Below are positions 1,523-42,867 of a stretch of 42,867 nucleotides of DNA, in pieces. The DNA lies in contig JAGVYS010000038.1 of assembly GCA_018303125.1 (NCBI GenBank), positions 1 through 42,867 on the forward strand. Reading direction: 5' to 3'. This DNA comes from Candidatus Woesearchaeota archaeon. Its GTDB lineage: Archaea > Nanobdellota > Nanobdellia > Woesearchaeales > WJIZ01. Each line of letters opens with the position of its first letter. Positions within the stretch are counted from its first letter, which is position 1. Under the pieces are notes generated by a model that did not search any database, had not been told where the DNA came from, and saw only the letters and a list, made by a program, of their open reading frames with translations. A program made the translations under genes and the position numbers.

Positions 1523-4500
1523 CTCATCTTGCCTCCAATAACATAAGTTATGTTGTAAGTCGCATTGACAGGCAGCTTAAACCTGTAAGTGGCTTTCTGC
1601 GAATTAAAGTTATGGAAATCAACAACTAGCGCCTGAGGCCCTGCTGTTGGGTTTGGCCATTCAGTAATCTCATGCTCAGACACCCAACTCTGCCATGTCC
1701 CGTAATCCTTATCCCAACTGTCAATAACCCAGCCGCCCCAGCCAGGTGTGGCAGGAACAGCCCTTACGCCAAACCATGAGCTAATCGGATTGTAGACTAT
1801 ATTATTAAACTCTCCAAGAGCATTAAAGTCTATTACATATCCTTTTGGATTAAGCTTGCATGTATTAGAGCACAAGTCACCATCATTTGTGTTGCGATCA
1901 TCGCACTGCTCATTATCTAAATCTGTGGCATAATCACCATCTTCCCCTGCAAGATCAGTTATGCCGTCCCCACAGAAAGATCCTAGTAGTGAATTGATAG
2001 ACATGTCCGCAAACTTGAAAGACCCTTGAGCCTGAATATAATTGCTTATCTCAGACTCTGGGGTATCTGGCGTATTATACCTCATGACAGCAGTCTGTGC
2101 AAAGACTGTTTTTCCTTTGCATTCATCGGGTATTATTGGTATTCTCCACTCTCCAGATAGCTTAGAGCCGGAAATTATTGGCCCTCCTTCATAATATATC
2201 CCCTGCAACGGAGTATTTTCCCATTGTATCACACATTTTGCTTCAGGGTCCAGTAAAAGTGAACTTAAGGACATTGAGCCAGGTGCAGGGCCTGCAGGAG
2301 GAACCTCAGACGCATCAACCTGTATATGGTTTGCGCCCTCGCAGATTGAGTCAGGACTTATATCTCCCCTTATGTTTATGTACTCACCTATATCAGCATA
2401 CCCGTTCTTGGTTAAAGGATTTTCTTGAAGGTATATGTCCACTCTTGTAATTTCGCACTTTTCCCTGCAGATTTTGAATGTTCCTGAAGGCTCGACAGGA
2501 TTCGACCTAAGTCTCTTGTGGATATCCTCACTCGCTACAGGCGCAGTAGCAGGAGGAGCTAAAAGCAGGAAAGCTTCCTTGCTATAAATATCCTTTCCCT
2601 TGCAGTAATAGGGTACATTGTTAGGCGGCGGGTTATTAGGCACACCCCATATGCCCATAAAATTCCTTAATGCATAATTAAATATCTGATAATATCCTAC
2701 ATAGCCCCTCTGTGTTTTAAACCACATTCCCGGAAGGTTCAACTGATTCCATCGCACCTTGCACTGTCCAGTGCCGTCAGAAGCTGACGCATAGAAATAT
2801 TCTGCATTGTTGCACGCAAGTGCATTCTCCACTCTTCCCTTTATCAAAACCATTTCATTAGGGTTATCAAGGTCAATGCAGCCATTGTCATTCTTGTCTA
2901 TTAGTTCAATGGATGACTCTTCCAAAACACAGCTCGGCACGCCTCCACACTTTATGCCAAAATCTCCTGAAGCATTCACATAATTGCTTACTTCAGTGCC
3001 CGGAACAGTATTCGGGGCAAAAAGCGCTGCCTCCATTGCATAAACTCTTTTTCCACAACATGAACCTGGAGTTTGCGATGGGAACGGCCACATCGGTGCA
3101 CTTATGTCATCTGCGATAAATTGGTTGCCTGAAAATTTCACAGGGGCGCTGATGCCTGTAATCCCACCACTAGTACCGCCATTCCATGTAATCGAGCAAA
3201 ATTCGCTTGAACTGTAGCTGGTTGGGTAATTCCTTGCATTAACTTGTATATTTTTTGCATTGGCGCATGCTACGGCATCAACTACCTCTCCGGTAATCTT
3301 CACCTTGTCCCCATAATTTGCCCCGTCATGGTTATTGTCTATAAGCTCTATGTAGGCACTCTTGAGCGTGCATGGCTTGGCAAATGTAAACTTTCCTCCT
3401 GCATCTGCTGTATTGCTCTGGATATTGCCTAATTCTGGCTCACCACGATACAATCTTCCAATGCCAAAAATCATTGTTTTTCCTTTGCATTCATTTGGCA
3501 CAACAGGTATTTCCCAGTAACCAACAAAAGCTCCCTGGTTTTCATTAAGGCCCCAGCCGTCAAAATGCTGTGGCAGCTCGCTTGGCTTTTTCAGCTCAAT
3601 CCTGGAATACATCCCTTTGTTAATGGATGCATCTCTAAGTGCGATGGTGCAAACTCCGTCAGTGCTTTTAGTTTCCATCAATGCGTAATCAGCCATAGTG
3701 CACTTATCCTTTAATTCCACATGCCCTTTCAGCTTTATCCTGTCTCCCGTCCATCCATATTGAATGATATTGCCATTCTTATCCTGAAGCTCCATTTCAA
3801 TATACTGAAACTTGCATAGCTGTGTGCTGGGCCCTGATCCGCCGAAAGTGATTGAGCCTGTGGCTTTTCCAGTTTCCCTTGTTACATAGTTGCTCACTAC
3901 CTGGCTTGTTAAAGAAGGTGGAGATGCCCTTAATACTGCTATGGTTGCATTTACTGTCTTGTCTGTGCAATCAGCCGGTATGCTGCTTGTAAGTTGCCAT
4001 TCTGTCGTTATTACATTGCTGGTCGCAGATGCAAGATTCAAGTTACTATTGTATATTCCGCTGATTTTGGCCAAATCCCATTGCACGGTGCACTCGCTCT
4101 GGCCTGCAGTGCTACTAAATTCCTTTGCATCAACCTGTATGTGCTTTGCAGCAAGGCAATTCTGTGGGTTATTGACCTCAAAAAGGATGGTTACTTTCTC
4201 ATTCTGGTCAACCTTGCCATTCTTTAATACGGTATCCTGTGAAGGTGAAAAGCTTATGGATGCTTTCTTCAGCTCGCAGGTTTGTGAGGCAAATGTGAAT
4301 AAGCCTGTTGATTGGAAGTAATTGCTGATAACTTTTGTACTACTGAGCAAAGGACCACCGTCCCTAAGGGCTGACAGGCCTGCATAAACTGTCTTTCCGC
4401 TGCATGCAGAAACTATTACAGGAACTTTCCAGTTAAGCCTAACGTAAGCACTGCCATCTGGTATGGTTGAATCTACAGGAATGAAATCTGCCGCACTAAT

Positions 4501-7071
4501 AGGATAATAATTTACGCCATTAAGAGTTGCCGAAGAACCGAAGCCGAGAATGCAACTATTTTGTAGGTCAACTGCATCAACCTGTATATGTCTTGCAGCA
4601 ATACATGCAGCCTTGGAGTTTACATAGCCTAGGATTATAACATTCTCGTCAGAATCTGCAACCCCATTACCCCGTGTTGCAATATTGCCGCTATAATCAT
4701 CATGCCTTATAGTAACAGACGTAATGATACAAGGTTCATCTATTTTTTTAGGAGAAGGTATGCCGCAGCAAACCTTGTAAGGATATGCCGTCCCTGCAAT
4801 TCCTGCATGTGCATTCGTTGTTTCTGTAAGGGCTGCAACCTCTTTTTCATTAGAAAGGCAGAACGATGATGAAAGTCTGCAGTCCAGATTTCCATAGCAT
4901 ATATAATCATAGCCTGCAGTCTTGCTACTTCTCTTTGGGTCTTCTGCATGCGCGTTTTTCGTTCCTGATGCAGCAATAACCCTATTGGCGTTGTTTTGGG
5001 AGCATAGCCATGGGTTTACTCCTGTGTATTTTTGCCCAAAGATTTCATCGTAGCATACTGGCACGGGCGCAGATGTGTCGCCATGCGAGTAGACATGCGC
5101 ATTTTTCTCAGATGAAATCCTGAACATCTCCTGATTGGCATCTGAACATCTGTAATAAACAGGCTCTGGAACAGTTTTTTTAACACATTCTTTTAGGTCA
5201 TTAGAAGTCATGGTGCTTTTCCACTTGTGCATGCCAGTCAATACATAGTAGGATTCCCACCTCTGAAGTGGCCAGTCATCATAGGATCCCCACACTTCAT
5301 AGTTTGAAAGAGGGTTGTAGCTGACTTCAAAAGTAACCGGTTCGGAAGTAGAGATACTTGCAGCTTTGCTTGCAACAACTGAACCATCCTTAAATACTTT
5401 AAAGTCAGGAAAAAGATGAGGAATATTAGTAGAAGTGTAGTAATCGTAGACATGGGGCAGGGAGGAGTAAAGTGGTACGGAGGAGATAGAAATATGTAAT
5501 TTATCACCGCGTACTTCATAAGAGATTTTTGGAGGATTTTGGCAAAAAAAATCCAAGTATTCAAGTGTTAACTGATCTGGGGAGGAGGCTGGGCATGAAT
5601 GCCAAAGTGTATCTGGCGAAGGACCGCTAAATTCGTACATAGTGCTAGCGGCGAATGTCCCAGAGCATGCTTCTGGCTTAATTGTCGATATGTCATAAAA
5701 GTAGAGTCTGGAATGCAAATCATATGTTGGGCTTGCTGCACCGTAGCCTGCTTCAGTTGGATATATCTTTGGGTGTGGAAAACCGCTTGCCTCGCTTGCA
5801 GACCATTCAATCAAGGCAACATCATTGAATATCTTCAGCAATCTCATTTCTGAGATTCCCTTGCTTGTGTCCTTGCCAGGGTCAGAGTATTTCTCTGTCC
5901 ATGCACTGCCATCATACTTTAGCAGTTTAAAGTCGCGGCTATCCTCCTCAACCAGAAGGTCGCCTCCCCTAAGCTCAGTACTAACAAAAAGAGACGTTCC
6001 ATCATCTGCGAAGGAAACTATTCTTGATTTGGAAAAATCATAGTTTACCTCAGTAAAGGCAGTTCCATCATAGGAATAAAGCTTTGAATGGTATACTCCA
6101 GTTGATGATCCTATTGTGACGCAACCGACTGCCAGATAAAGCTTATTGCCGAAAGAGTAGAGAAGGGAATCAACATATTTTGTCTGATACCACTTCAGTG
6201 AATTTTGCGTGTCCAGATATGATTCTGTCCTTGTGTCCTTGCAGACATCTGCCTGGTTCAAAGGAGAGGTAAGCACATTAAAAAGGTTCAAAGTATAGGT
6301 TGTATCTCCTTTTACATATATATTATCTCGCCATGATGAAGGGTACCCTTCTATGTTTGGCTCTTTCACAACTGGAGAAGGGTAAGCTGTTAAGTACATC
6401 TTATTGTTATACACTACCATATTTCTGGGATTTCTCCAGCTGTTTGTGTCTCCATATGGATAGATCCCCTGTATGCTTGTAAGCCGTGCGCCCGAGCTAG
6501 GTAATTCAACAGTATAAACCCCTCTCTTGGTCTGGCTTATATACAGCACGTTGTTAAACACTTTAAAATCATTCAGTATTTCGTATTGGGGACTGGACGT
6601 ATATATGCCTGCATTTACGTCATAAATAATCACTCCTCCTGTTCCATCTGTATTGTACCTGAATATCCTGCCACTTACATCGCCTACATAAAGCTTGCCT
6701 CCCTCAAACTGGAATGTAAGTATCCTCGCATCTTTGTAACTCTGGCCATTCGGCTGCACCTGTGGCAGGGAAAGAAGTGCTCTCCATGAAGTGCCATCAA
6801 ATGAATATATTTCAGCATTAGTGTCATAAGTGTTGGTTATCCCATCAGGGTCATAGTTATGTGAGTAATAGAGCTTCCCATTGTACTCTTCTGCGTGACC
6901 AACATCAACCTTCCAGTATTTTGTATGCTTGTATGTATCCCATAATCCGTCTGCACTTGCCTGTTCCAATGTAAAACTCTCGGCAAAAGCAAGGGAAGAA
7001 GCCACTGATAAAATAGTACACATAGTAACCAAAAATCCAATTCCGTGTCCATTAATTTTTTTGGCCTGCAT
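1519..7071 (-). CDS. Giant secreted repeat protein (1850 aa): propeller-like region, NAH/CC motifs, six Ig-like repeats, DUF4215-like motif
   Basis: The protein begins with a clear signal peptide: basic start, hydrophobic core, and a probable cleavage after SLAFA near residue 31. Residues ~35-470 show repeated YNGKLYY, EGGKLYVG and FNNVLYIS blocks, suggesting a beta-propeller. A Cys-rich section at about 640-770 contains three copies of an NAH motif, each followed by a Tyr/Cys pair. Six diverged copies of a ~150-residue module follow, then a DUF4215-like Cys motif (CGDG...CDDRNT.DGD) and a last beta-rich stretch. There is no obvious C-terminal transmembrane anchor. It lies one nt after the stop of a pilin-like gene (7073-7771) and overlaps the next gene by ATGA, so the three probably form one operon. 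The likely role is envelope or adhesion. The propeller call is by pattern only. Confidence 0.85.
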   Translation of the reverse strand: MQAKKINGHGIGFLVTMCTILSVASSLAFAESFTLEQASADGLWDTYKHTKYWKVDVGHAEEYNGKLYYSHNYDPDGITNTYDTNAEIYSFDGTSWRALLSLPQVQPNGQSYKDARILTFQFEGGKLYVGDVSGRIFRYNTDGTGGVIIYDVNAGIYTSSPQYEILNDFKVFNNVLYISQTKRGVYTVELPSSGARLTSIQGIYPYGDTNSWRNPRNMVVYNNKMYLTAYPSPVVKEPNIEGYPSSWRDNIYVKGDTTYTLNLFNVLTSPLNQADVCKDTRTESYLDTQNSLKWYQTKYVDSLLYSFGNKLYLAVGCVTIGSSTGVYHSKLYSYDGTAFTEVNYDFSKSRIVSFADDGTSLFVSTELRGGDLLVEEDSRDFKLLKYDGSAWTEKYSDPGKDTSKGISEMRLLKIFNDVALIEWSASEASGFPHPKIYPTEAGYGAASPTYDLHSRLYFYDISTIKPEACSGTFAASTMYEFSGPSPDTLWHSCPASSPDQLTLEYLDFFCQNPPKISYEVRGDKLHISISSVPLYSSLPHVYDYYTSTNIPHLFPDFKVFKDGSVVASKAASISTSEPVTFEVSYNPLSNYEVWGSYDDWPLQRWESYYVLTGMHKWKSTMTSNDLKECVKKTVPEPVYYRCSDANQEMFRISSEKNAHVYSHGDTSAPVPVCYDEIFGQKYTGVNPWLCSQNNANRVIAASGTKNAHAEDPKRSSKTAGYDYICYGNLDCRLSSSFCLSNEKEVAALTETTNAHAGIAGTAYPYKVCCGIPSPKKIDEPCIITSVTIRHDDYSGNIATRGNGVADSDENVIILGYVNSKAACIAARHIQVDAVDLQNSCILGFGSSATLNGVNYYPISAADFIPVDSTIPDGSAYVRLNWKVPVIVSACSGKTVYAGLSALRDGGPLLSSTKVISNYFQSTGLFTFASQTCELKKASISFSPSQDTVLKNGKVDQNEKVTILFEVNNPQNCLAAKHIQVDAKEFSSTAGQSECTVQWDLAKISGIYNSNLNLASATSNVITTEWQLTSSIPADCTDKTVNATIAVLRASPPSLTSQVVSNYVTRETGKATGSITFGGSGPSTQLCKFQYIEMELQDKNGNIIQYGWTGDRIKLKGHVELKDKCTMADYALMETKSTDGVCTIALRDASINKGMYSRIELKKPSELPQHFDGWGLNENQGAFVGYWEIPVVPNECKGKTMIFGIGRLYRGEPELGNIQSNTADAGGKFTFAKPCTLKSAYIELIDNNHDGANYGDKVKITGEVVDAVACANAKNIQVNARNYPTSYSSSEFCSITWNGGTSGGITGISAPVKFSGNQFIADDISAPMWPFPSQTPGSCCGKRVYAMEAALFAPNTVPGTEVSNYVNASGDFGIKCGGVPSCVLEESSIELIDKNDNGCIDLDNPNEMVLIKGRVENALACNNAEYFYASASDGTGQCKVRWNQLNLPGMWFKTQRGYVGYYQIFNYALRNFMGIWGVPNNPPPNNVPYYCKGKDIYSKEAFLLLAPPATAPVASEDIHKRLRSNPVEPSGTFKICREKCEITRVDIYLQENPLTKNGYADIGEYINIRGDISPDSICEGANHIQVDASEVPPAGPAPGSMSLSSLLLDPEAKCVIQWENTPLQGIYYEGGPIISGSKLSGEWRIPIIPDECKGKTVFAQTAVMRYNTPDTPESEISNYIQAQGSFKFADMSINSLLGSFCGDGITDLAGEDGDYATDLDNEQCDDRNTNDGDLCSNTCKLNPKGYVIDFNALGEFNNIVYNPISSWFGVRAVPATPGWGGWVIDSWDKDYGTWQSWVSEHEITEWPNPTAGPQALVVDFHNFNSQKATYRFKLPVNATYNITYVIGGKMR
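1990..4740 (-). repeat. Six tandem protein-level repeats (~150 aa each) inside the giant surface gene
   Basis: Each unit begins with a Cys followed by an alternating hydrophobic strand and an Asp/Asn-rich loop (for example IELIDKNDNG). It continues with a second Cys, then HIQVDA or a variant, a third Cys before a Trp, a P.ECKGKTVYA segment, and ends with SNY(V/I) and G.F.FA. The copies are diverged at DNA level but keep Cys spacing, suggesting disulfide-stapled Ig-like domains. The third and fifth copies are the most divergent. Confidence 0.75.
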
Positions 7072-10183: not shown

Positions 10184-10705
10184 ATGAAAAATCTCAGGAA
10201 TTTCAAGCTGCAAAGCATGATTAATGCCCCGGATTCTATCACCTTCCTCAATCTTTTGTGCGGCGTATCATCAATCATTTTTTCCATGAATTCGATGTTC
10301 AGGGAGGCTGCATTAGCCATCCTGCTTGCAGCCCTATTTGACTATCTCGACGGTAAAACTGCCTCAATGCTCAGGATGAAAACAGATTTCGGGAAAGAGC
10401 TTGACTCTATAGCAGATGTTGTGAGCTTTGGCGTTGCACCCTTTGTATTTGGGCTTTCGTATATTGAATATGATGCATTTCTTTTGATTTCTTCTGCCTT
10501 CTTTGTTATCTGCGGTGCGGCAAGGCTGGCAAGATACAACATAATGAATTACAAGCAAGGGTTCCTGGGCATGCCAATAACAATGAATGCCTTTATTTTC
10601 CCATTGATTTACTTTTTAGCTCTGCCTGACATAGTATACCCAATAGCATATGCACTTGCCGGCTTCCTCATGGTTTCAAGCATAAGGTTCAGGAGATTGT
10701 CATGA
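10184..10705 (+). CDS. pssA: CDP-alcohol phosphatidyltransferase, PssA-like (archaetidylserine synthase candidate)
   Basis: A 173-residue polytopic membrane protein of the CDP-alcohol phosphatidyltransferase family. The family motif DGxxARx8Gx3Dx3D is visible as DYLDGKTAS...GKELDSIAD near residues 52-78, with Ser in place of the usual Arg after the Ala. The IAD-VVSFGVAP continuation is typical of phosphatidylserine/archaetidylserine synthases. Expected chemistry is transfer of serine (or another alcohol) onto CDP-archaeol in the membrane. It overlaps the CDP-archaeol synthase gene by ATGA, so product and substrate enzymes are co-translated. Substrate specificity is inferred from family resemblance. 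Confidence 0.8.
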   Translation: MKNLRNFKLQSMINAPDSITFLNLLCGVSSIIFSMNSMFREAALAILLAALFDYLDGKTASMLRMKTDFGKELDSIADVVSFGVAPFVFGLSYIEYDAFLLISSAFFVICGAARLARYNIMNYKQGFLGMPITMNAFIFPLIYFLALPDIVYPIAYALAGFLMVSSIRFRRLS

Positions 10706-11250
10706 TAATCCTTCTCTTGCAGAGCTTCTATATTATGCTCCCAGCTTATTTCGCCAATATGGCCCCTGTAATAGCAAAAAGGCTCAAGATTCTGCCTGGG
10801 ATGAATAAGCCCATTGACATGGACATAAAAATGGAGGATGGCAAGCCAATATTCGGAAAACACAAGACATACAGGGGAGTAGCGGTTGGGATATTGATGG
10901 GCATAGTTGTTGCTTTTGTGCAATGGCTTTTGTCTCCCCTCATTGGAAGCGTGAGCATCTTAGATTATTCTTCCTATGTATTAATAGGCTTCCTTATGGG
11001 TTCTGGTGCCATAATAGGGGATATGGTAAAGAGCTTTGCAAAGAGAAGATGCGGAATAATGCCAGGCCACAAGTTCATTCCATTCGACCAAATAGATTTT
11101 ATATTGGGGGCTTATCTGTTCACGCTGCCTTTTTACGGCGATTTTATAACTATGGAGCTATTAGCGAGTTCAATCATAATTACATTTTTCCTGCATATAA
11201 TAGTAAACCATGCCGCTTTTTACCTTGGCATAAGAAATGAAAAATGGTAG
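10702..11250 (+). CDS. carS: CDP-archaeol synthase
   Basis: A 182-residue integral membrane protein of the CarS (former DUF46) family, which makes CDP-archaeol from CTP and unsaturated archaetidic acid. Visible family features are PIDMDIKMEDGKPIFGKHK followed by KTYRGVAVG near residues 36-62, and later RRCGIMPGHKFIPFDQIDF around 115-135, with conserved Gly and acidic residues between membrane helices. Several hydrophobic helices fit the usual topology, and the length is normal for the family. It overlaps both neighbours by a few bases, placing it in the middle of a three-gene lipid head-group operon. It is strong evidence for archaeal ether lipids. Confidence 0.92.
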   Translation: MIILLLQSFYIMLPAYFANMAPVIAKRLKILPGMNKPIDMDIKMEDGKPIFGKHKTYRGVAVGILMGIVVAFVQWLLSPLIGSVSILDYSSYVLIGFLMGSGAIIGDMVKSFAKRRCGIMPGHKFIPFDQIDFILGAYLFTLPFYGDFITMELLASSIIITFFLHIIVNHAAFYLGIRNEKW

Positions 11251-15766: not shown

Positions 15767-16498
15767 TTATAAATTTTTCTCCCTGATTATTTCCCCATTG
15801 TCAATCGGCTGCTCATGCTTTCTTATCATAGCAAAAGCAATGTATTTGCCATATTTTTTTGAATAGCTACAAGTTGTAATCTGGCCTATTTTCTCGCCTT
15901 TTGAACTTACATCTTTAACTGGCGAATCATAAAGTATCCTGACAATTTTTCTTGCTGGCCTAGTAAGATTATGTGCCCTTGCCATGACCTCCTGTCCGAG
16001 ATAGCATCCCTTGGTGAAAGATACTGCATCATATAATCCAGTATCAAGGAACATTGGCCTGTCAAAATCAACTCCCTGGACAGGTATATTATTTTCGAGC
16101 CTGATTAGATTATATTCTTCTTCTGACAACTTTGGCAGGTCAGGCAATTCATCAGCCAATGCAAGATATCCGAGGTTCTGCTGGAATTTTATCCTGCCTA
16201 TTCCTTGTGGGCTTATTACATGTATGACTATCCCTGAATCTTTTTTCACGTCTGCCTTTGCCAACCTTGCGTATTTCATGATATGCTCCAGAAATGCTTC
16301 CTCATATTTTTCTTCAAGCACAATGTAAGCTTTTCCATCCTCTATTTTCTGCTCAAAAAGCGCAATGAGCTTTCCAAACCTGTCAAGAAATGCATTCCTT
16401 GGTTTAGAGAGCTCATTTGAAGTTATGCCATTAAGCAGAGTATCTACGTTTCCTGAGATAGCATAGCATACCTTTGAAAGCTTCCTGTACCCATTCAT
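15767..16498 (-). CDS. ygfZ: YgfZ/GcvT-like folate-binding protein (Fe-S cluster maintenance)
   Basis: The 243-residue protein carries the YgfZ fingerprint KGCYLGQE near residue 163, with the conserved Cys, followed by RAHNLTRPARKIV. YgfZ/IBA57 proteins are distant relatives of the glycine-cleavage T-protein; they bind tetrahydrofolate and support assembly or repair of certain Fe-S enzymes, notably radical-SAM proteins such as lipoyl synthase. A lipA gene is present in this window, which fits. The protein is shorter than E. coli YgfZ but covers both the N-terminal folate domain and the C-terminal barrel. It is divergent from aRF1, with starts 56 nt apart. The family call is firm because of the motif; the role in this organism is inferred. 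Confidence 0.85.
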   Translation of the reverse strand: MNGYRKLSKVCYAISGNVDTLLNGITSNELSKPRNAFLDRFGKLIALFEQKIEDGKAYIVLEEKYEEAFLEHIMKYARLAKADVKKDSGIVIHVISPQGIGRIKFQQNLGYLALADELPDLPKLSEEEYNLIRLENNIPVQGVDFDRPMFLDTGLYDAVSFTKGCYLGQEVMARAHNLTRPARKIVRILYDSPVKDVSSKGEKIGQITTCSYSKKYGKYIAFAMIRKHEQPIDNGEIIREKNL

Positions 16499-16553
16499 GT
16501 TTCAGGAGGACAATAAGCCAAATTTTATAAATTCTCCTCAACTCTGGAGAATA

Positions 16554-17123
16554 ATGTCATTAACAGAAAAACAAAGGTATGACCTTAAGAAATTCATAAA
16601 AGAGCTTGACCAGCATAGAGGCAGGCATACAGAATTCGTGAGCGTCCTTATACCTGCCGGATATGACATGAACAAGGTAATTGGCCATCTCAGCCAGGAG
16701 CAGGGCACAGCCACTAACATAAAGTCTGCATCAACGAGAAAGAACGTTATAGATGCCCTTGAAAGGATGATACAGCACTTGAGGCTGTTCAAGCAGACTC
16801 CTCAAAATGGACTTGCTGCATACTCAGGAAACATCGCCTCTGCAGAAGGCCAGTCAGACGTTAGGGTATGGAGCATTGAGCCACCATTGTCATTAAACAT
16901 GCGCATATACAGGTGCGACAAGGATTTCAAGCTTGATGTGCTAAGGGAGATGCTCGAGGCAAAGGAAGTTTATGGCCTGATAGTCCTTGACAGGAGGGAT
17001 GCAAACATAGCTATTTTGAAGGGTAAAACTATAATTCCGCTGTTAAAAACTCACAGCGAAGTCCCGGGAAAAATGAGGGCTGGTGGGCAAAAGGCGCTGC
17101 AAAGGAGCATTACAAGAAGGTAG
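16554..17123 (+). CDS. prf1: Peptide chain release factor aRF1, N-terminal and GGQ part (frame broken after GGQ)
   Basis: The 189 residues begin MSLTEKQRYDLKKFI. They contain the stop-codon recognition motif TNIKSASTR near residue 60 and YR/CDK landmarks of domain 1, then the domain-2 segment VPGKMRAGGQ ending at position 17090. The GGQ loop enters the peptidyl-transferase centre and triggers hydrolysis. Directly after GGQ the frame runs into KALQRSITRR and a TAG, whereas normal aRF1 continues with roughly SAxRFxRxRE. ATG 16554 is chosen over 16497 because family members start here; the earlier ATG overlaps the divergent ygfZ start. The rest of the protein is encoded in another frame directly downstream. 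Without a normal junction this fragment alone could not be a functional release factor. Confidence 0.9.
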   Translation: MSLTEKQRYDLKKFIKELDQHRGRHTEFVSVLIPAGYDMNKVIGHLSQEQGTATNIKSASTRKNVIDALERMIQHLRLFKQTPQNGLAAYSGNIASAEGQSDVRVWSIEPPLSLNMRIYRCDKDFKLDVLREMLEAKEVYGLIVLDRRDANIAILKGKTIIPLLKTHSEVPGKMRAGGQKALQRSITRR

Positions 17124-17623
17124 CGGAATATGTGAAGCAGCAATTTCTTACTTACGAAGGCCTGAAAGGCATAATAGTCGGCGGCCCTGGCCCGACAAAA
17201 TACGACTGGGTTGACGGAGATTTCCTAACCAATGAACTGAAGAAAAAGATAATAGCGATAAAGGACCTGAGCTACACTGGAGATTTCGGCCTCGAAGAGC
17301 TGCTCGAGAAATCTGATGATGTCCTGGCATCAGAAGCAGTTTCAGGGGAAAAGAAAATAATGAACACCTTCTTTGACAGGCTTGCCAAGAGCCCATTAGG
17401 CGTTGCATATGGCAAAGACGATGTCATGTCAAAGCTGAAAATGGGGGCAGTAGACAAGATACTTGTTTCAGAAGCCATGGATGAAAAAACAATAGAAGAA
17501 TTTGAGACAGAGGCAAAAAATTACGGCACAGAAGTAGTCATAATTTCAACAGAAACAAGGGAAGGCGTGCAGCTTAAGGAAATTGGAAGGGTGGCAGCAT
17601 TGCTAAGGTATGAGGTGCATTAA
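17093..17623 (+). CDS. prf1: Peptide chain release factor aRF1, C-terminal part (second fragment)
   Basis: From 17093 the frame continues as GAAKEHYKKVAEYVK, which is the expected sequence following the GGQ helix. It then has the hallmark GGPGPTKYDW and GDFLTNELKKKI, DLSYTGDFGLEELLEKS, and a domain-3 end (GAVDKILVSE...EGVQLKEIGRVAALLRY). The first possible separate start is GTG at 17132, which would drop the helix after GGQ. Compared with archaeal homologues about ten codons after GGQ are missing, and the frame changes by a net loss near 28 nt. No other aRF1 copy is in the window. Either the assembly is wrong here, or the gene is truly broken or split. Confidence 0.85.
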   Translation, partial: GAAKEHYKKVAEYVKQQFLTYEGLKGIIVGGPGPTKYDWVDGDFLTNELKKKIIAIKDLSYTGDFGLEELLEKSDDVLASEAVSGEKKIMNTFFDRLAKSPLGVAYGKDDVMSKLKMGAVDKILVSEAMDEKTIEEFETEAKNYGTEVVIISTETREGVQLKEIGRVAALLRYEVH

Positions 17624-18575: not shown

Positions 18576-18971
18576 ATGGGAGAAACAAGGTCAGCATCAA
18601 TAGGTTCGATGAAAAAAGGCAGCTATATAGTTTTAGAGGGAGTTGCCTCAAGAGTGGTAGATATACAGGTCAGCAAGCCAGGAAAGCACGGCCATGCCAA
18701 GATAAGGCTTACTGGTGTAGGATTGATTGACAACAAGAAAAGGGTCATAGTTGCACCAGGCCATGATAATGTTGAAACTCCTATAGTGGAGAAGAAAAAC
18801 GCACAGGTCCTGTCAATATCCGGCGAAGTTGCAAATATCATGGATTCTGAAAACTTTGAAACTTTCGACCTCCCGATTCCGGAAGAGTTGAAGGGCCAGG
18901 TAAAGGAAGGGTCACAGGTCATGTACTGGATAGTGCTTGACGAAAAGGTTATGAAGCAGGTGAATGGCTGA
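18576..18971 (+). CDS. eif5A: Translation initiation factor 5A
   Basis: The 131-residue protein is aIF5A. The SH3-like N-domain carries the hypusination loop SKPGKHGHAK near residues 45-54, in which the Lys between Gly and His is the modification site. The OB-like C-domain ends VMYWIVLDEKV. It relieves ribosome stalling and helps peptide-bond formation and termination. A strong TATA-like tttttatatatc (18545-18556) sits 20 nt before the ATG, indicating its own promoter and a leaderless transcript. L40e follows two nt later. No deoxyhypusine synthase is visible in the window. Confidence 0.96.
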   Translation: MGETRSASIGSMKKGSYIVLEGVASRVVDIQVSKPGKHGHAKIRLTGVGLIDNKKRVIVAPGHDNVETPIVEKKNAQVLSISGEVANIMDSENFETFDLPIPEELKGQVKEGSQVMYWIVLDEKVMKQVNG

Positions 18972-23394: not shown

Positions 23395-23422
23395 CCTAAA
23401 GCAGCGGTTTCCGGTGCTTAGG
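23395..23422 (-). repeat. Right-end subterminal hairpin of the IS element
   Basis: The arms cctaaagca (23395-23403) and tgcttagg (23415-23422) pair over 8 bp with one bulged A, with a small inner cgg/ccg pairing in the loop. The hairpin overlaps the tnpA stop codon at 23418. In this family such hairpins are bound by TnpA and guide strand cleavage. Confidence 0.6.
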
Positions 23423-23843
23423 TAAATACTACGCCATAGTGTTCTGCCTGTCCTTGAATGTAAGTAATCATGCTGTTGAGGTCGTTGTATCCGACTGTTA
23501 CTGCGAATCCTCCAGGTGACCAAAAATGTCCTTTCGGGTAGCGGAGCCTGAATTTTTCTTTGACTCGGAACAAGATGTGGGCTGATCGGCCTTTGAGGAG
23601 TTGAAACGCTTCTGAGTCTGTCATGCCGTGTGGCAGCGTGACAAGGGCGTGTACATGGTCGGGCATGACAGCGATGTAATGGATGATGATGCCATGTTCA
23701 TGGGCTGCCTTGCGGATGGCTGCTTCAACAAGATTTTTATTCTCAAGCTTTCTCATCATCTTGTAACGGTACTTTGGGCACCATTCAAGATGCCAGAAAT
23801 TCGTTCCCTTTTTGTGGGAAAAATGGGTTAGGCTTATTTGCAT
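23418..23843 (-). CDS. tnpA: IS200-type TnpA, Y1 HUH single-strand transposase
   Basis: The 141-residue protein has the family's features: FWHLEWCPKYRY near the N-terminus, the HUH metal site MPDHVHALV near residues 59-67, FWSPGGFAVTVG, and the C-terminal helix with the candidate nucleophilic Tyr (MITYIQGQ, about residue 128). It cuts and joins single-stranded DNA through a 5'-phosphotyrosine. ATG 23843 has a good GGAGG site (23852-23857) upstream and is preferred over GTG 23858. The gene looks intact, so the element could be active. Confidence 0.92.
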   Translation of the reverse strand: MQISLTHFSHKKGTNFWHLEWCPKYRYKMMRKLENKNLVEAAIRKAAHEHGIIIHYIAVMPDHVHALVTLPHGMTDSEAFQLLKGRSAHILFRVKEKFRLRYPKGHFWSPGGFAVTVGYNDLNSMITYIQGQAEHYGVVFT

Positions 23844-23984
23844 TTTCTCGTCCTCCACGGACGAGAGCTCACGCTACTTTGATTTGGTAGATTCGTGCGC
23901 AGATACGGCCGCAGGTCACTCCTGCGGCTCTGCCGCACAAAAATTTTTCTAAGAAAACGACCTAAAGGTCGGGGGTTTAAACCC

Positions 23985-36525: not shown

Positions 36526-38922
36526 ATGGATTCTGTGATTGAAGCACTATATGCAAAAGCTGATTCAGCTCAAATAGTTTCTTTTCCGATAGCTGACTTA
36601 TGGAGCGCGGATTCATCTGGCTTTCCCAGGCCTCCTCAAGACTCTGCAGCTGAAGCAGCAAAAAAGCCAATAGTTGCAATAAAATCTCTTTCATTGGAAG
36701 AGATGCTTGCCCCTCAAGGAATGGGAGGCATATCAGGGATTATTGTTAAGGCTCATCCTGAGTATTCTTCCAGATATAATCCTGCAGTTGTTCCTATCAC
36801 CATATATCTTGCTTATCAGAACCAACCAAGCATATTGAGGACATGGGAAAATAATTTTTCTTTTAATTCCGGTTTAAGCATAGCAGCTTATCAATATGGG
36901 GAAGATGCGGCCTACCTAAACAACAGCGCCTCTAATGTGTCTTCCTATTCAGAACTAAGAACTCCTCAGAGCTCCATAAGATATAGTGAAACTAAATCAT
37001 ACGGCAATGTAGCTGCAAGTGAAACAATTGTTAATGTTCCGCAACTGCTCGTGAGAGAGGATTACGAAGAAAGAACATATGTTTCTGACAACACAAGTAA
37101 CAGCGGTATTTCAAGCCTATCTAGCACAGATGCCTTAACACAGCCTTCAGTTATGTATGTTGCGCCAATTAGCGAAAATAGCAGAGTTTCATATTATGAT
37201 GCTTCAGAAATTTCTCAAATTGCAATGCCAACAATGGTTAATTTGCCGTTTACCATGGCTTATGAAAACAAAATAGCTTCTTCTGAGATAAATAGCCAGG
37301 CAGAAATAAAGATTGTAGAAAGGCAATACTCGACACTATCCAGCGAAAATTCATTTATCCAATCAGCACAGTTTTTTGTCTTAGGTGAAGAGCCTATTTC
37401 TTCCATAGTAAGCAATGCTTCATCAACAATAACCAAATCTAACAAGTTAGAATACTCAGAACCAATTGCTGTAAATTATTCGATTGAAATAGCAAAAGAC
37501 AGCACGAATAATCTGCCATCGCAATTCACAAATGCTCCAGTAACAGAATCTGTTGCTGTAACACAATATGTCAATGTTGCGCTTAGTGATAGGATTGGAG
37601 TAAATTACTATGCTCAATTAGATTCCTCGCATGAGCCTTTACAGGAATTAGCGCAAGCAGTATACAGAGAACTTGAGCTATCGGTAAATGCAGATAATGT
37701 AACTCCAAAAACAAGGAATACTGTAGCGAGCGAAAACACAGTAACTGCAGATAGTGGTTATGTTAGCAGTATAAATTCTGAATTAAGGGATAGTGTGCTT
37801 CTCTTAGGGACTGAAAAGGTTAGGCCTATTATAACAATTGACACTATGGTCGCTACTCCAAGCATATCTTATCTGGCAGATAGAACAATCGTAGCAAGTA
37901 GCCCTAGTGAAACGAGCAACTCTCTAGATAGCCTCCTTCTACAAAATAAAGTAGAGGAGCCGTATAGGCAGGACAAGATAAAGAGAGAAGACCTATGTGC
38001 AGTGAGGGCAGATATCAAAGATGGGGAAATAACACTTGGCAGCATAGATGATGCAGTTAGCGAAAGGCTGGTAAGGTATTTTGGGAAAGATAACATCAGC
38101 TCGCTTGAGGCAGATGGAACATACAAAGCACCTGAAAACACTGTCTTGGCAGCAATTATTTATCTTCTGGACAAGCAAGGATTAGTTACGAAGTATGTGC
38201 AGAAAGAAGATGGAATGTACATACACAGTATACAAGGAATAGAAGGAAGCATTAGGGTTGCAAAAGTAAACAAGAAAACAGGGGAGAAAAGATATATTAC
38301 CATAGGCCTTGAGAGGGAACAATTCAATCCAACACTCGAAAGAATGGTTGTTGAGACAGATGGAAAAGTTAGCTACACTAACACTTTTGACATGAGGTAT
38401 TTCTCACAAATTAAGAATTATAAAGGGGATGTTGTTGAAGGTGCTTATGATCTTGGAGTTTTATCAGGCAGAGTAAGCTTGGAAGAGGCAAACGATACAA
38501 GAACGATTGCGATATATGGCAAAACAGAGAATGGAGAATTGAAGGCATCTGCCATAGCGGCAAATTCTGTTTTAGGCATAATTTACAAAAGGGCGGAGAA
38601 ATTAAAAGAAGGCGGGCTGGATATAAAATTGGATTTAGGAATTTCAGAATTCCAGATGAAGGACGGAAAACTGCTTCCAACAGACTATTCAAACATTTAT
38701 TTAAGGGACATAGATGTCTTTGGAAGAAGCATTGTAAACAGGAACGGAAACAATGGTTTGGTAGTGCACAGCGTCGATGGTTTAATGCAAAGGTCTGAAT
38801 TGCTGAAAAATGGAAGGTCTGTAGGAGCTGCAGATTATATAGCTCAGCATAGAGAACACCTCTCAGTGACAGGCATTTTGCAGGGTGTATTTGACAATAA
38901 CAATACCCAGATTGGCTATTAG
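36526..38922 (+). CDS. Large orphan protein with Ser/Asn/Tyr-rich N-terminal two thirds
   Basis: The 798-residue protein has no signal peptide, no transmembrane helix and only one Cys (near residue 490). Residues ~1-480 are low in complexity: Ser, Asn, Thr, Val and Tyr dominate, with recurring short phrases such as SYSE, SSEN, VASEN and YVAP, suggesting a disordered or fibrous region. Residues ~485-798 are normal globular sequence with alternating strands (KDGEITLGSIDD, RYITIGLEREQ, GAYDLGVLSGRVS). The long clean frame and codon pattern support a real gene. AT-rich gcatttaaac lies just upstream (36505-36514). No family was recognised, and no function is proposed. Confidence 0.75.
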   Translation: MDSVIEALYAKADSAQIVSFPIADLWSADSSGFPRPPQDSAAEAAKKPIVAIKSLSLEEMLAPQGMGGISGIIVKAHPEYSSRYNPAVVPITIYLAYQNQPSILRTWENNFSFNSGLSIAAYQYGEDAAYLNNSASNVSSYSELRTPQSSIRYSETKSYGNVAASETIVNVPQLLVREDYEERTYVSDNTSNSGISSLSSTDALTQPSVMYVAPISENSRVSYYDASEISQIAMPTMVNLPFTMAYENKIASSEINSQAEIKIVERQYSTLSSENSFIQSAQFFVLGEEPISSIVSNASSTITKSNKLEYSEPIAVNYSIEIAKDSTNNLPSQFTNAPVTESVAVTQYVNVALSDRIGVNYYAQLDSSHEPLQELAQAVYRELELSVNADNVTPKTRNTVASENTVTADSGYVSSINSELRDSVLLLGTEKVRPIITIDTMVATPSISYLADRTIVASSPSETSNSLDSLLLQNKVEEPYRQDKIKREDLCAVRADIKDGEITLGSIDDAVSERLVRYFGKDNISSLEADGTYKAPENTVLAAIIYLLDKQGLVTKYVQKEDGMYIHSIQGIEGSIRVAKVNKKTGEKRYITIGLEREQFNPTLERMVVETDGKVSYTNTFDMRYFSQIKNYKGDVVEGAYDLGVLSGRVSLEEANDTRTIAIYGKTENGELKASAIAANSVLGIIYKRAEKLKEGGLDIKLDLGISEFQMKDGKLLPTDYSNIYLRDIDVFGRSIVNRNGNNGLVVHSVDGLMQRSELLKNGRSVGAADYIAQHREHLSVTGILQGVFDNNNTQIGY

Positions 38923-39155: not shown

Positions 39156-40277
39156 ATGGTAAGGAACAGCAAGATAGAAAAGGCAAAAAGCAGCATTCCT
39201 GACAGGATAAGGGAGCTGGAAAAAGAGATAGAGAACACAAAGTACAACAAAAGGACACAGAGCCATATTGGCCTCGTAAAGGCAAAAATTGCCATGCTGA
39301 GGGAAAAGCAGGTTTCTAGGAAAAAAGGCTCTGGCAAAACTTATGGTTACACAACAAAGAGAAGCGGAGATGCATCAGCAATTATTGTTGGCTTCCCTTC
39401 AGCAGGAAAAAGCACATTGCTGAACAAGCTTACAAATGCCAATTCAAAGACAGCTGCCTATGAATTCACAACTCTTACCTGCATTCCTGGCATGATGGAT
39501 TACAACGGCGCAAGGATACAGATTCTTGATGTGCCTGGCATAGTAGAGGGCGCAGCATCAGGCAAGGGAAGGGGAAAAGAAGTCCTTTCAGTGGCAATAA
39601 ACGCTGACCTTGTTCTTTTGCTTATTGACGTATTCCATACAGAGCACTACCCTGTCCTAATGAAAGAAGTAAGGGATTCCTACATAAGGATGAATGAAGA
39701 AAGGCCTGACATAAGGATAAAGGCAACAATTAAAGGAGGAATTTCAATAGGTTCAACTGTTAGGCTAACTAATATAGACGAGGAAACAATAAAGGCAATA
39801 TTGCATGAGTTCAGGATAACGAATGCAGATGTTCTGATAAGGTCAGACATAAATGCTGACCAACTGATAGATTCCATAGAAGGGAACAGGAAGTACATTC
39901 CTGGCATAGTTGCCATAAACAAGATAGACATAGCAGACGAAGGTACCTTAAGAAAGGCAAAGGCAATACCCCATGATATATTGATTAGCTGCGAGAAAGG
40001 CACAAACATGGATGGGCTTAAGGAGATTATATACAGGAAACTGAGATTCATGAAGGTCTATTGCAAACAGCAGAGCAGGAAAGCAGACATGGACACTCCT
40101 TTGATAATGAGAGAAGGCTCAACATTGCAGGACATGTGCGACAGGTTGCATAGGGATTTTGTGAAAAGGTTCAGGTTCGCAAGGGTATGGGGAAGCTCAA
40201 AGTTTGCCGGCCAGGTAATAAGAAACCTTAAGCATGAGATAAAGGATAAGGATATCGTAGAGCTTGTATTGGATTAG
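39156..40277 (+). CDS. drg: DRG-family GTPase with TGS domain
   Basis: The 373-residue protein is a developmentally-regulated-GTP-binding (Rbg) GTPase. An N-terminal basic helical domain (1-65: LEKEIENTKYNKRTQSHIG) precedes the G domain, with G1 GFPSAGKST near 78, the DVPGIVEGAASGKGRGKE switch near 125 and G4 NKID near 250. The protein ends in a TGS domain (~300-373, SRKADMDTPLIMREGSTLQDM). DRG proteins associate with translating ribosomes and relieve pausing. A TATA-like acttaaaag (39124-39132) precedes the ATG. The preceding 233 nt (38923-39155) show no gene. Confidence 0.94.
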   Translation: MVRNSKIEKAKSSIPDRIRELEKEIENTKYNKRTQSHIGLVKAKIAMLREKQVSRKKGSGKTYGYTTKRSGDASAIIVGFPSAGKSTLLNKLTNANSKTAAYEFTTLTCIPGMMDYNGARIQILDVPGIVEGAASGKGRGKEVLSVAINADLVLLLIDVFHTEHYPVLMKEVRDSYIRMNEERPDIRIKATIKGGISIGSTVRLTNIDEETIKAILHEFRITNADVLIRSDINADQLIDSIEGNRKYIPGIVAINKIDIADEGTLRKAKAIPHDILISCEKGTNMDGLKEIIYRKLRFMKVYCKQQSRKADMDTPLIMREGSTLQDMCDRLHRDFVKRFRFARVWGSSKFAGQVIRNLKHEIKDKDIVELVLD

Positions 40278-40356
40278 CCAATACACAAAAACGTAACATT
40301 TAAATATTAAAGATTTTATAAAGCATAGAAGTTAAAAATAAAGAGGTGTGTGTAGT

Positions 40357-40953
40357 ATGTTCAATAGAAAAGCGCAGGCTGCCATGGAATTCTTGATGAC
40401 CTATGGCTGGGCTATATTGGTTGTTCTCGTCGCAATAGGTGCATTGGCTTATTTTGGTGTTCTTACTCCTGATAAATTGCTGCCTTACAGGTGCATTGGT
40501 CCTGCAGGATTTGACTGCATTGAGAAGGCGAGTATATCCACTGGAACAGATACTGGGGGAATAGCATTAAGTAATAACTATGTTGAATTCACAGTTAAAA
40601 ACAATTTAGGTTATAACATAGTTATAAGAGACCAAGATTCTGGTCCTGCATACGGAGGAAGCGTCACGTCAGGAAACAGTTTTACATGGGCTGGCGGAGG
40701 CACAGCAGCTCCGGGTACTGGGCATTTTACGGCTTCTACACCACCTGCAGGCGGTGTAGTACCACCTGCACCTACCGATATTGGTAGTGGTGGAATGACA
40801 GTAGCTGCTGGAGACTTGCTGAAAATAAGGATACTTGCATCTGCTGTAATTCCTCCTGGAAGGTTCTCCGGAGATTTCAGGATATGGTATGATAACGTCT
40901 ATACTGGTCAGAAGCATCCTGCAACCTTCACAATAACTGGAAGGACAAACTAA
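40357..40953 (+). CDS. Pilin-like protein with class III signal peptide
   Basis: The 198-residue protein starts MFNRKAQAAMEFLMTYGWA, a class III (prepilin-type) signal: basic NRK, then QAAMEF at the cleavage site and a ~20-residue hydrophobic helix. The mature part is a beta-rich domain with a Gly/Thr/Pro-rich segment (~110-145). It would be processed by an archaeal prepilin peptidase and assembled into, or anchored at, the cell surface. Expression signals are strong: TATA-like catttaaatatt (40297-40308) and a gaggtg ribosome-binding site 12 nt before ATG 40357. The in-frame GTG at 40348 overlaps the RBS and is rejected. Confidence 0.9.
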   Translation: MFNRKAQAAMEFLMTYGWAILVVLVAIGALAYFGVLTPDKLLPYRCIGPAGFDCIEKASISTGTDTGGIALSNNYVEFTVKNNLGYNIVIRDQDSGPAYGGSVTSGNSFTWAGGGTAAPGTGHFTASTPPAGGVVPPAPTDIGSGGMTVAAGDLLKIRILASAVIPPGRFSGDFRIWYDNVYTGQKHPATFTITGRTN

Positions 40954-40970: not shown

Positions 40971-41018
40971 ATTGTTTTGTATATAAATCTTTATTAATTA
41001 AGTTTAAATCCTGTATAT

Positions 41019-42200
41019 ATGCGAAATTTTATTCTGCTAATAATTATCCTAATCTTATTTGGATTCTTTTTTCTAGTATATAATTACGCACCATTGGTTG
41101 ATGAAAACCTCCATTTTACACAAATAAAAAGGTTCATGTTTGGAAACTACACTCAGGACATAACTGCTGTAATGCCTGGTTACCATTTCTTCATGTCTAC
41201 TGTATCAAAGGCATTTGGATTAAATCACATTGGAGAAATGCGATTCATTCAGCTTATTATCTCTATAGCGACTATATTGATATTTTTCCATCTGGTAAAG
41301 ACTTTGCACTTGCCTCACTCAAGAGGATTAATGTTTTCCTCCTTTCCCCTTTTTTTCCCTTTTTTCTTCCTAATCTACACCGACATGTTATCATTAATGT
41401 TTGTGTTGCTTGGATTTTATTTTACAATAAGACAAAATTATGCAGCAGCAGGGATATTAACCACCATAAGCATTTTTATCAGACAAAATAATGTTATATG
41501 GCTTATTTTTCTACTTTCAATCGCCATAAAATTGCAGAACAATGGTACTGGTTCTCTTGCTATTTTGATAAAGACAATTAAAAAAAATTGGGCATATTTT
41601 CTTGGCATAGTTAGTTTCATTATATTCCTGGTAATTAATAAAGGAATAGTTTTGGGCGACAAGGACATGTATAAATCACTCTACATTTACTTTGGAAATA
41701 TATATTTTTTCCTGTTCCTTTTTTTCTTCCTTTTTTTACCGCTAAATATACATAATTTTAGAAAAATCATGCAACTGTTAAAGAATAAAATAGCATGGGT
41801 TATGATAGCGCTATTATTCATAGTTTATTTACTAACTTTTAAGAATACTAACCCATACAATGTAATCGCAGCAAACTATCTTTTATCAGGCTCCATTCTT
41901 GCTTATTTCTCTTCTTTAATATTGCTTAAGTCATTTTTCTTCCTTCCTATTATTTATTCAGCGCTTTCTATCAGTGTAACAAAAATTGAGCATAAAAATC
42001 TTCTTTGCCTCTTTACTTTTTTATTTCTCATACCGTTTTGGTTCATCCAGCCAAGATATTACTTCATTCCCTTTACTTTTTTTATCATCTTCTTCAAGTC
42101 AGAGTCAAAAAAAGTCATAAACGATACTATAACACTTTGGATAATCGCTTCTATTACTATATTCTTATTGATACTAAGGGGAAACGTATTTCCATTCTAG
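41019..42200 (+). CDS. Polytopic glycosyltransferase resembling ALG10/DIE2
   Basis: The 393-residue protein has about ten or more transmembrane helices. The first extracytoplasmic loop APLVDENLHFTQIKRFMFGNY followed by MPGYHF matches the acidic DE(x)FH...Q loop and PG(L/Y) turn of the eukaryotic ALG10/DIE2 alpha-1,2-glucosyltransferase. FFFLIYTDMLS, then IFIRQNNVIW near residue 150, and FIQPRYYFIPFTFF near the end, correspond to other landmark phrases (YYTD, RQTNI.W, PRYF..P). Such enzymes transfer sugar from a lipid-phosphate donor to a lipid-linked oligosaccharide. It may act in archaeal N-glycosylation. Overall identity is modest and specificity is unknown. Confidence 0.65.
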   Translation: MRNFILLIIILILFGFFFLVYNYAPLVDENLHFTQIKRFMFGNYTQDITAVMPGYHFFMSTVSKAFGLNHIGEMRFIQLIISIATILIFFHLVKTLHLPHSRGLMFSSFPLFFPFFFLIYTDMLSLMFVLLGFYFTIRQNYAAAGILTTISIFIRQNNVIWLIFLLSIAIKLQNNGTGSLAILIKTIKKNWAYFLGIVSFIIFLVINKGIVLGDKDMYKSLYIYFGNIYFFLFLFFFLFLPLNIHNFRKIMQLLKNKIAWVMIALLFIVYLLTFKNTNPYNVIAANYLLSGSILAYFSSLILLKSFFFLPIIYSALSISVTKIEHKNLLCLFTFLFLIPFWFIQPRYYFIPFTFFIIFFKSESKKVINDTITLWIIASITIFLLILRGNVFPF

Positions 42201-42629: not shown

Positions 42630-42867
42630 TCAAAACCCCATTAAACTCTTCTGTTCTCTTGTTTTATTCCAGTGTTTTTCTTGGCATTCTTCTATATAAT
42701 GTTTCATGGTATCTTTTGTTACCATACCAACGCTTCGATAGAAGTGACCTTCACTCCAGAATTTTTTCCCCCAAAGCTTGTGCCGAAACATGTCCCAATG
42801 CCCCTTTCTCATCATATAAGAGCTGAATCCCTTTATTTGCCTGACGAGTTCAATTTCTCCGAGATAC
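42630..42867 (-). CDS. tnpA: IS200/IS605-type TnpA, C-terminal part (runs off the window)
   Basis: The frame is open to the right edge, giving about 78 residues: YLGEIELVRQIKGFSSYMMR, then KGHWDMFRHKLWGKKFWSEGHF, RSVGMVT and TMKHYIEECQEKHW. The KKFWSEGHFYRSVG phrase and the Tyr in KHYIEECQ match the C-terminal catalytic region of Y1 HUH transposases. The HUH histidines would lie beyond the window. It differs from the IS copy at 23381-23988, so two different elements of this family occur here. Confidence 0.88.
   Translation of the reverse strand, partial: YLGEIELVRQIKGFSSYMMRKGHWDMFRHKLWGKKFWSEGHFYRSVGMVTKDTMKHYIEECQEKHWNKTREQKSLMGF

Follow-up and report, generated by a model that had tools for sequence, protein, structure and literature searches.

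The product of an open reading frame at positions 41019..42200 of the forward strand belongs to the GT-C glycosyltransferases as a divergent prokaryotic representative of the DIE2/ALG10 (PF04922) branch, and this explanation, taken as a whole with a role in surface glycosylation and a horizontal origin, is considered reasonably probable. The window, i.e. the whole stretch of 42,867 nucleotides that was analyzed, is one entire contig (G000:C21) of a 1.35-Mb genome that is 94.7% complete and 1.2% contaminated. The frame begins with ATG and extends over 393 codons with no internal stop, and its product of 393 amino acids is hydrophobic. Comparison of the protein with all of Pfam resulted in a match to PF04922 (DIE2_ALG10) with an E value of 9.4e-29 and 101.3 bits, covering profile positions 4–390 of 391; this was the sole match at E ≤ 10, with the PMT, PMT_2, ArnT, EpsG, and GT87 models absent. 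The curated gathering cut-off of PF04922 is 27 bits, and a score of this size over a nearly full-length profile indicates that the motif resemblance is not a product of chance. The first-pass annotation had proposed an ALG10/DIE2-like protein in an archaeon, to be abandoned if an HMM search favored PMT, ArnT, or EpsG; the PF04922 score and the archaeal contig bear the proposal out, and no better match to those families occurred. A search of NCBIfam with the window protein gave no matching model, and PDB sequence searches with the protein and two profiles gave no relative, so that an ALG10 structure was not found by sequence.

The motifs that had been read in the order of the eukaryotic family are all present in the window protein, as DENLHFTQ (28–35), MPGYH (52–56), IYTD (119–122), RQNNVIW (155–161), and QPRYYFIP (345–351). 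In an alignment of 21 prokaryotic rows, comprised of the window protein and 20 homologues, nearly all of them from other phyla, Asp-28, Glu-29, His-32, Pro-53, Tyr-120, Thr-121, Arg-155, Gln-156, Asn-158, Asn-281, Arg-346, and Tyr-347 are invariant, and Gly-54, His-56, Arg-75, Asp-122, and Pro-351 are nearly so. Judged from this conservation, these positions are likely to mark the active site. In GT-C enzymes, the first extracytoplasmic loop, which follows TM1, carries an acidic DxD/DE motif, and an Rx4-14P motif is located in the loop of the final four TM helices (PMC6801728). In the window protein, Asp-28 and Glu-29 follow directly after helix 2–20 of the predicted model, within the DxD-like first-loop motif D28-E29-xx-H32-xx-Q35 (41100..41123, forward strand), of which D28, E29, and H32 are found in 21/21 rows. 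The donor-phosphate motif is represented by RYYFIP (R346-P351; 42054..42071, forward strand), where R346-x4-P351 lies in the last helices and Arg-346 and Tyr-347 are conserved in all 21 rows and Pro-351 in 20. A putative second luminal loop acidic motif is formed by YTD (residues 120–122; 41376..41384, forward strand), with the Tyr and Thr in 21/21 and the Asp in 20/21 rows, and it is followed by RQNN (residues 155–158; 41481..41492, forward strand), with R155, Q156, and N158 in every row. Asn-281 of NPYN (41859..41861, forward strand) is aligned at the place of the eukaryotic HP(Y/F)LLADNRHY, and the window protein lacks the ADNRHY. We take the loop HP(Y/F)LLADNRHYxFY to be the signature of eukaryotic ALG10. 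In place of the eukaryotic HPFLLADNRHYTFY loop the prokaryotic proteins have a short segment, which in most of them has N followed by a terminal (L/I)RN and in the window protein reads NPYNVIAANYLLSGS, with LSG at the (L/I)RN position.

The AlphaFold model of the window protein (pLDDT 84, pTM 0.87) has ~12–13 membrane helices according to DSSP, a count that comes from a predicted model, and eukaryotic ALG10 is characterized by 13 TM helices in a 1-8-4 arrangement. The leading Foldseek matches in the PDB are GT-C enzymes, including ALG3, EmbA/B, Pmt2/Pmt4, ALG12, GPI-MT-I, ALG9, AglB, PglB, and ArnT, with probabilities of up to 1.00 but a best E value of only 0.057 and TM-scores of ~0.42. Because of these weak E values and TM-scores, the model backs the GT-C superfamily and not a subfamily. 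A fold search of BFVD with the model gave weak matches only. The AglB/STT3 oligosaccharyltransferase (GT66) shares the GT-C fold and is among these Foldseek matches, whereas the window protein shows no match to STT3 in sequence, is devoid of the long soluble domain at the C terminus, and is encoded separately from the AglB of the same genome.

Homologues were searched for with a profile of two woesearchaeal proteins over genome contigs; a single-sequence pattern search of the contigs had missed every homologue that this profile recovered. A clear member is present in 2 of the 353 genomes of the window's order, the source genome and Woesearchaeota RIFCSPHIGHO2_01_FULL_47_16. The other members found belong to Omnitrophota, Gottesmanbacteria, Peribacteraceae, Microbulbifer, another gammaproteobacterium, a deltaproteobacterium, Corallococcus, Myxococcaceae, and an unclassified bacterium. 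All 10 members tested from this set or its genomes passed the PF04922 cut-off, and the prokaryotic scores range over 70–141 bits (Peribacteraceae 141, Microbulbifer 134). The archaeal emphasis of the first-pass annotation was not supported, as bacterial proteins score as high as the archaeal one or higher. Carriers are sparse in every sample, with 2/237 for Omnitrophota, 2/333 for the phylum of the Gottesmanbacteria genome, 4/195 for the phylum of Corallococcus, and 2/369 for the class of Microbulbifer, and the true rates are lower than these counts since each sample includes its center genome, which was gene-positive by choice. No ALG10-family gene was present in 14 named control genomes, and none was found in the viral contigs, phages, and plasmids searched. 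Such counts are the pattern expected of a gene that is rarely kept and moves horizontally, and the two carriers in the order, together with bacterial scores that are equal or higher, fit rare horizontally spread genes better than an ancestral archaeal gene. Weak PF04922 matches in related genomes (L004 and L006) were attributed to other proteins of the GT-C type and not counted; the L004 protein is a PMT_2 protein by Pfam, with no PF04922 match at E ≤ 1. In Woesearchaeota RIFCSPHIGHO2_01_FULL_47_16, the region 1648–6685, 3 kb from the ALG10-family gene, contains a gene of the MraY type (Glycos_transf_4) along with a pair of Mur ligases, of which one is fused to a peptidase M23 domain; these may be peptidoglycan-like genes in an archaeal bin or may reflect contamination of the bin.

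Surface glycosylation is the role we infer as the best fit for the window protein, and here the earlier proposal was supported; the pilin-like neighbor that had been cited for it counts for little. Homology predicts a protein of the cell membrane whose active site points to the outside. A dolichyl (polyprenyl) monophosphate hexose, in which the sugar is most likely glucose, would be bound by the conserved arginine in RYYFIP, and the first-loop DE motif may act as the catalytic acidic site, so that one sugar would be added to a surface glycan, either lipid-linked or already attached. Synthesis of the donor would take place at the cytoplasmic face and require a Dol-P-sugar synthase, for example the homologue found in this genome, whose AglB could then transfer the glycan to protein. 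Activity, sugar, acceptor, and topology are all predictions. The source genome encodes an AglB/STT3 (128.6 bits) and 15 GT2 genes, one of which matches Dol-P-Man synthase 5mlz with 171 bits, and a surface-glycan cluster of ~60 kb with many GT2 and nucleotide-sugar enzymes begins near AglB (G000:C22, ~41–98 kb). The ALG10-family gene lies outside this cluster. The protein would share its GT-C fold, donor type, membrane location, and surface-glycan role with the archaeal and bacterial polyprenyl-phosphate donor enzymes of the AglS, ArnT, PMT_2, and GT87 families, and is distinguished from them by the lack of a Pfam match to the PMT, PMT_2, GT87, EpsG, and ArnT models.

GT2 genes of the polyprenyl-phosphate-sugar synthase type occur next to the ALG10-family gene, or a short distance from it, in five bacterial lineages. 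The distance between open frames is 32 bp in Microbulbifer, where the GT2 matches the GtrB structure 5ekp with 339 bits, and 4 bp in a Patescibacterium, where the two genes are on the same strand and the best PDB match is the Dol-P-Man synthase (DPMS) 5mlz. The GT2 is adjacent and divergent in Myxococcota, with a weak match only, 222 bp away in a gammaproteobacterium, and 1.8 kb away in Peribacteraceae. The profile with which neighbors were ranked was built from these neighbors themselves, and the synthase type is accordingly taken from independent NCBIfam and PDB matches only. The C-terminal GSK motif of the GT2 neighbors in Patescibacteria and Myxococcota presumably resembles that of ALG5 (Dol-P-Glc synthase). 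No GT2 adjoins the ALG10-family gene in the window or in the other Woesearchaeota. A GT-C enzyme of the same family that uses mannose, galactose, arabinose, or another sugar, or that acts on a protein or polysaccharide acceptor instead of a lipid-linked glycan, is less probable than the role proposed above and is the strongest of the alternatives. The neighboring synthases are of several subtypes (GtrB-like, DPMS-like, and unassigned), and the copy of RIFCSPHIGHO2_01_FULL_47_16 has as its neighbors genes for a Wzx-type flippase and a protein like the Wzy_C O-antigen ligases. The same direction is indicated by Omnitrophota RA.bin19, where seven or eight ALG10-family genes, mostly head to tail, occupy ~11.5 kb (G526:C20:109034-120405), an array that suggests local duplication with diversified acceptors or sugars. 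The best neighbor match is to GtrB, a polyisoprenyl-phosphate glucosyltransferase, which favors glucose over this alternative. Glucose is also the only donor sugar known for the family (ALG10, Dol-P-Glc; PMC6801728).

Horizontal gain, by a route that we infer, is a more probable origin of the window gene than descent from an archaeal ancestor. The gene starts 741 bp downstream of a DRG-type GTPase gene (MMR_HSR1, MMR_HSR1_Xtn, TGS by Pfam; 39156..40277, forward strand), which marks the flank as archaeal; its identity to counterparts within the family is 65–71% for four genomes and 61% for one more. Between the two lies a gene for a small protein (40348..40953, forward strand) with an N terminus, KAQAAMEFLMTYGWAILVV, that reads as an archaeal class III signal peptide or pilin-like start and with no match in Pfam. 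The DRG loci read in relatives contain neither the pilin gene nor the ALG10-family gene, although some of these contigs end soon after DRG. The first-pass annotation had linked the two genes; with a neighborhood that is not conserved at these loci, the functional link was dropped. An IS200-like (Y1) transposase fragment (42630..42866, reverse strand; PF01797, E 1.6e-10), cut by the contig end, lies ~430 bp downstream of the gene. A second transposase-like gene at 23418–23858 (reverse strand) has 28% identity to this fragment over 65 residues. The GC content of the frame is 30.5%, compared with 40.4 ± 2.6% for 78 ORFs of the genome, which is partly due to its hydrophobic codon make-up, and its GC3 of 0.34 is only mildly low relative to 0.41 ± 0.05. 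The low GC, the nearby transposase, and the absence at the DRG loci of relatives agree with horizontal gain. Low GC and a nearby transposase, together with the lack of a clear copy in family-level relatives, would also be seen if the gene had been gained recently or were decaying and did nothing for its host at present. This is improbable for a full-length frame that retains all conserved residues but one motif and is preceded by a TATA-box-like gtatataaat (40979..40988, forward strand), read from the sequence ~30 bp before the ATG. The element suggests that the gene may be transcribed from a promoter of its own into an mRNA that is short or leaderless.

In a 2016 survey of the pathway, Alg10 and other lumenal enzymes appear unique to eukaryotes, with only distant PMT-like relatives in prokaryotes (PMC4973528). 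Our literature search found no report of prokaryotic ALG10 homologues, and a listing of such members in Pfam, without comment, may already be in place. Yeast Die2 (GT59), the Dol-P-Glc:Glc2Man9GlcNAc2-PP-Dol alpha-1,2-glucosyltransferase, and its eukaryotic ALG10 counterparts are like the window protein in matching PF04922 above the cut-off over the full length and in having DE-x2-H in the first loop, PG, YTD, RQxN, GDK, and RYYxxP in the same order. The yeast sequence used here is one that we presume to be correct, and the results obtained with it are leads. It scores 387 bits against PF04922 and 83 bits with the prokaryotic profile, and has ~24% pairwise identity to the window protein, which is ~130 residues shorter and lacks the ADNRHY loop. 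The window archaeon is not known to make the glycan that serves as the eukaryotic acceptor. The tree is an unresolved star in which the two woesearchaeal proteins form no supported clade and the presumed yeast sequence is on a very long branch. In AU tests, clades of the window protein with G011, of the window protein with yeast (p-AU 0.44), and of Patescibacteria with yeast were none of them rejected, indicating that the tree cannot place the eukaryotic gene. Nor does it put the archaeal proteins closer to eukaryotes than their bacterial homologues.

Inheritance of a true ALG10 orthologue from the archaeal ancestry of the eukaryotic pathway, with the enzyme placing the terminal alpha-1,2-glucose on a lipid-linked oligosaccharide like that of eukaryotes, would be consistent with PF04922 membership, the AglB of the genome, and the unrejected clade with the presumed yeast sequence. 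It is nevertheless very unlikely, as bacterial members score up to 141 bits, so few genomes of the order carry the gene, the branch leading to the eukaryotic sequence is very long, and none of the groupings, alternatives included, is rejected by the AU test. Because the ADNRHY signature is missing, we did not classify the window protein as an orthologue of ALG10 that shares its acceptor. A divergent family member of horizontal origin remains the preferred reading. Somewhat speculatively, these proteins may form an unrecognized prokaryotic ALG10 family that is often paired with a polyprenyl-phosphate-hexose synthase and spreads horizontally, and eukaryotic ALG10 might descend from one of its members, perhaps along with an ALG5-like partner. 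Given its sporadic occurrence in unrelated bacteria, the family is older or has been exchanged more widely than had been assumed. The prokaryotic PF04922 proteins, several with the synthase gene adjoining, provide sequences for testing the origin of the ER glucosylation step and study systems for an enzyme family for which the searches here found no solved structure.

Contamination, with a contig of bacterial or eukaryotic origin placed in the archaeal bin, is the least credible explanation: the contig ends 667 bp past the gene, but it carries CDP-archaeol synthase (10702–11247), aRF1 (16497–17620), and aIF5A (18576–18968), the DRG GTPase just upstream has 61–71% identity to archaea of the same family, and the gene itself is a single open frame behind a TATA-like element. 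Elsewhere on the contig, a gene at 36526–38922 (forward strand) encodes a 798-amino acid protein with a serine-rich N-terminal part and no Pfam match. The aRF1 gene (forward strand) reads in two frames, interrupted within the eRF1_2 domain directly behind the GGQ motif; this is probably an assembly or sequencing error, a genuine split of the gene being less likely.
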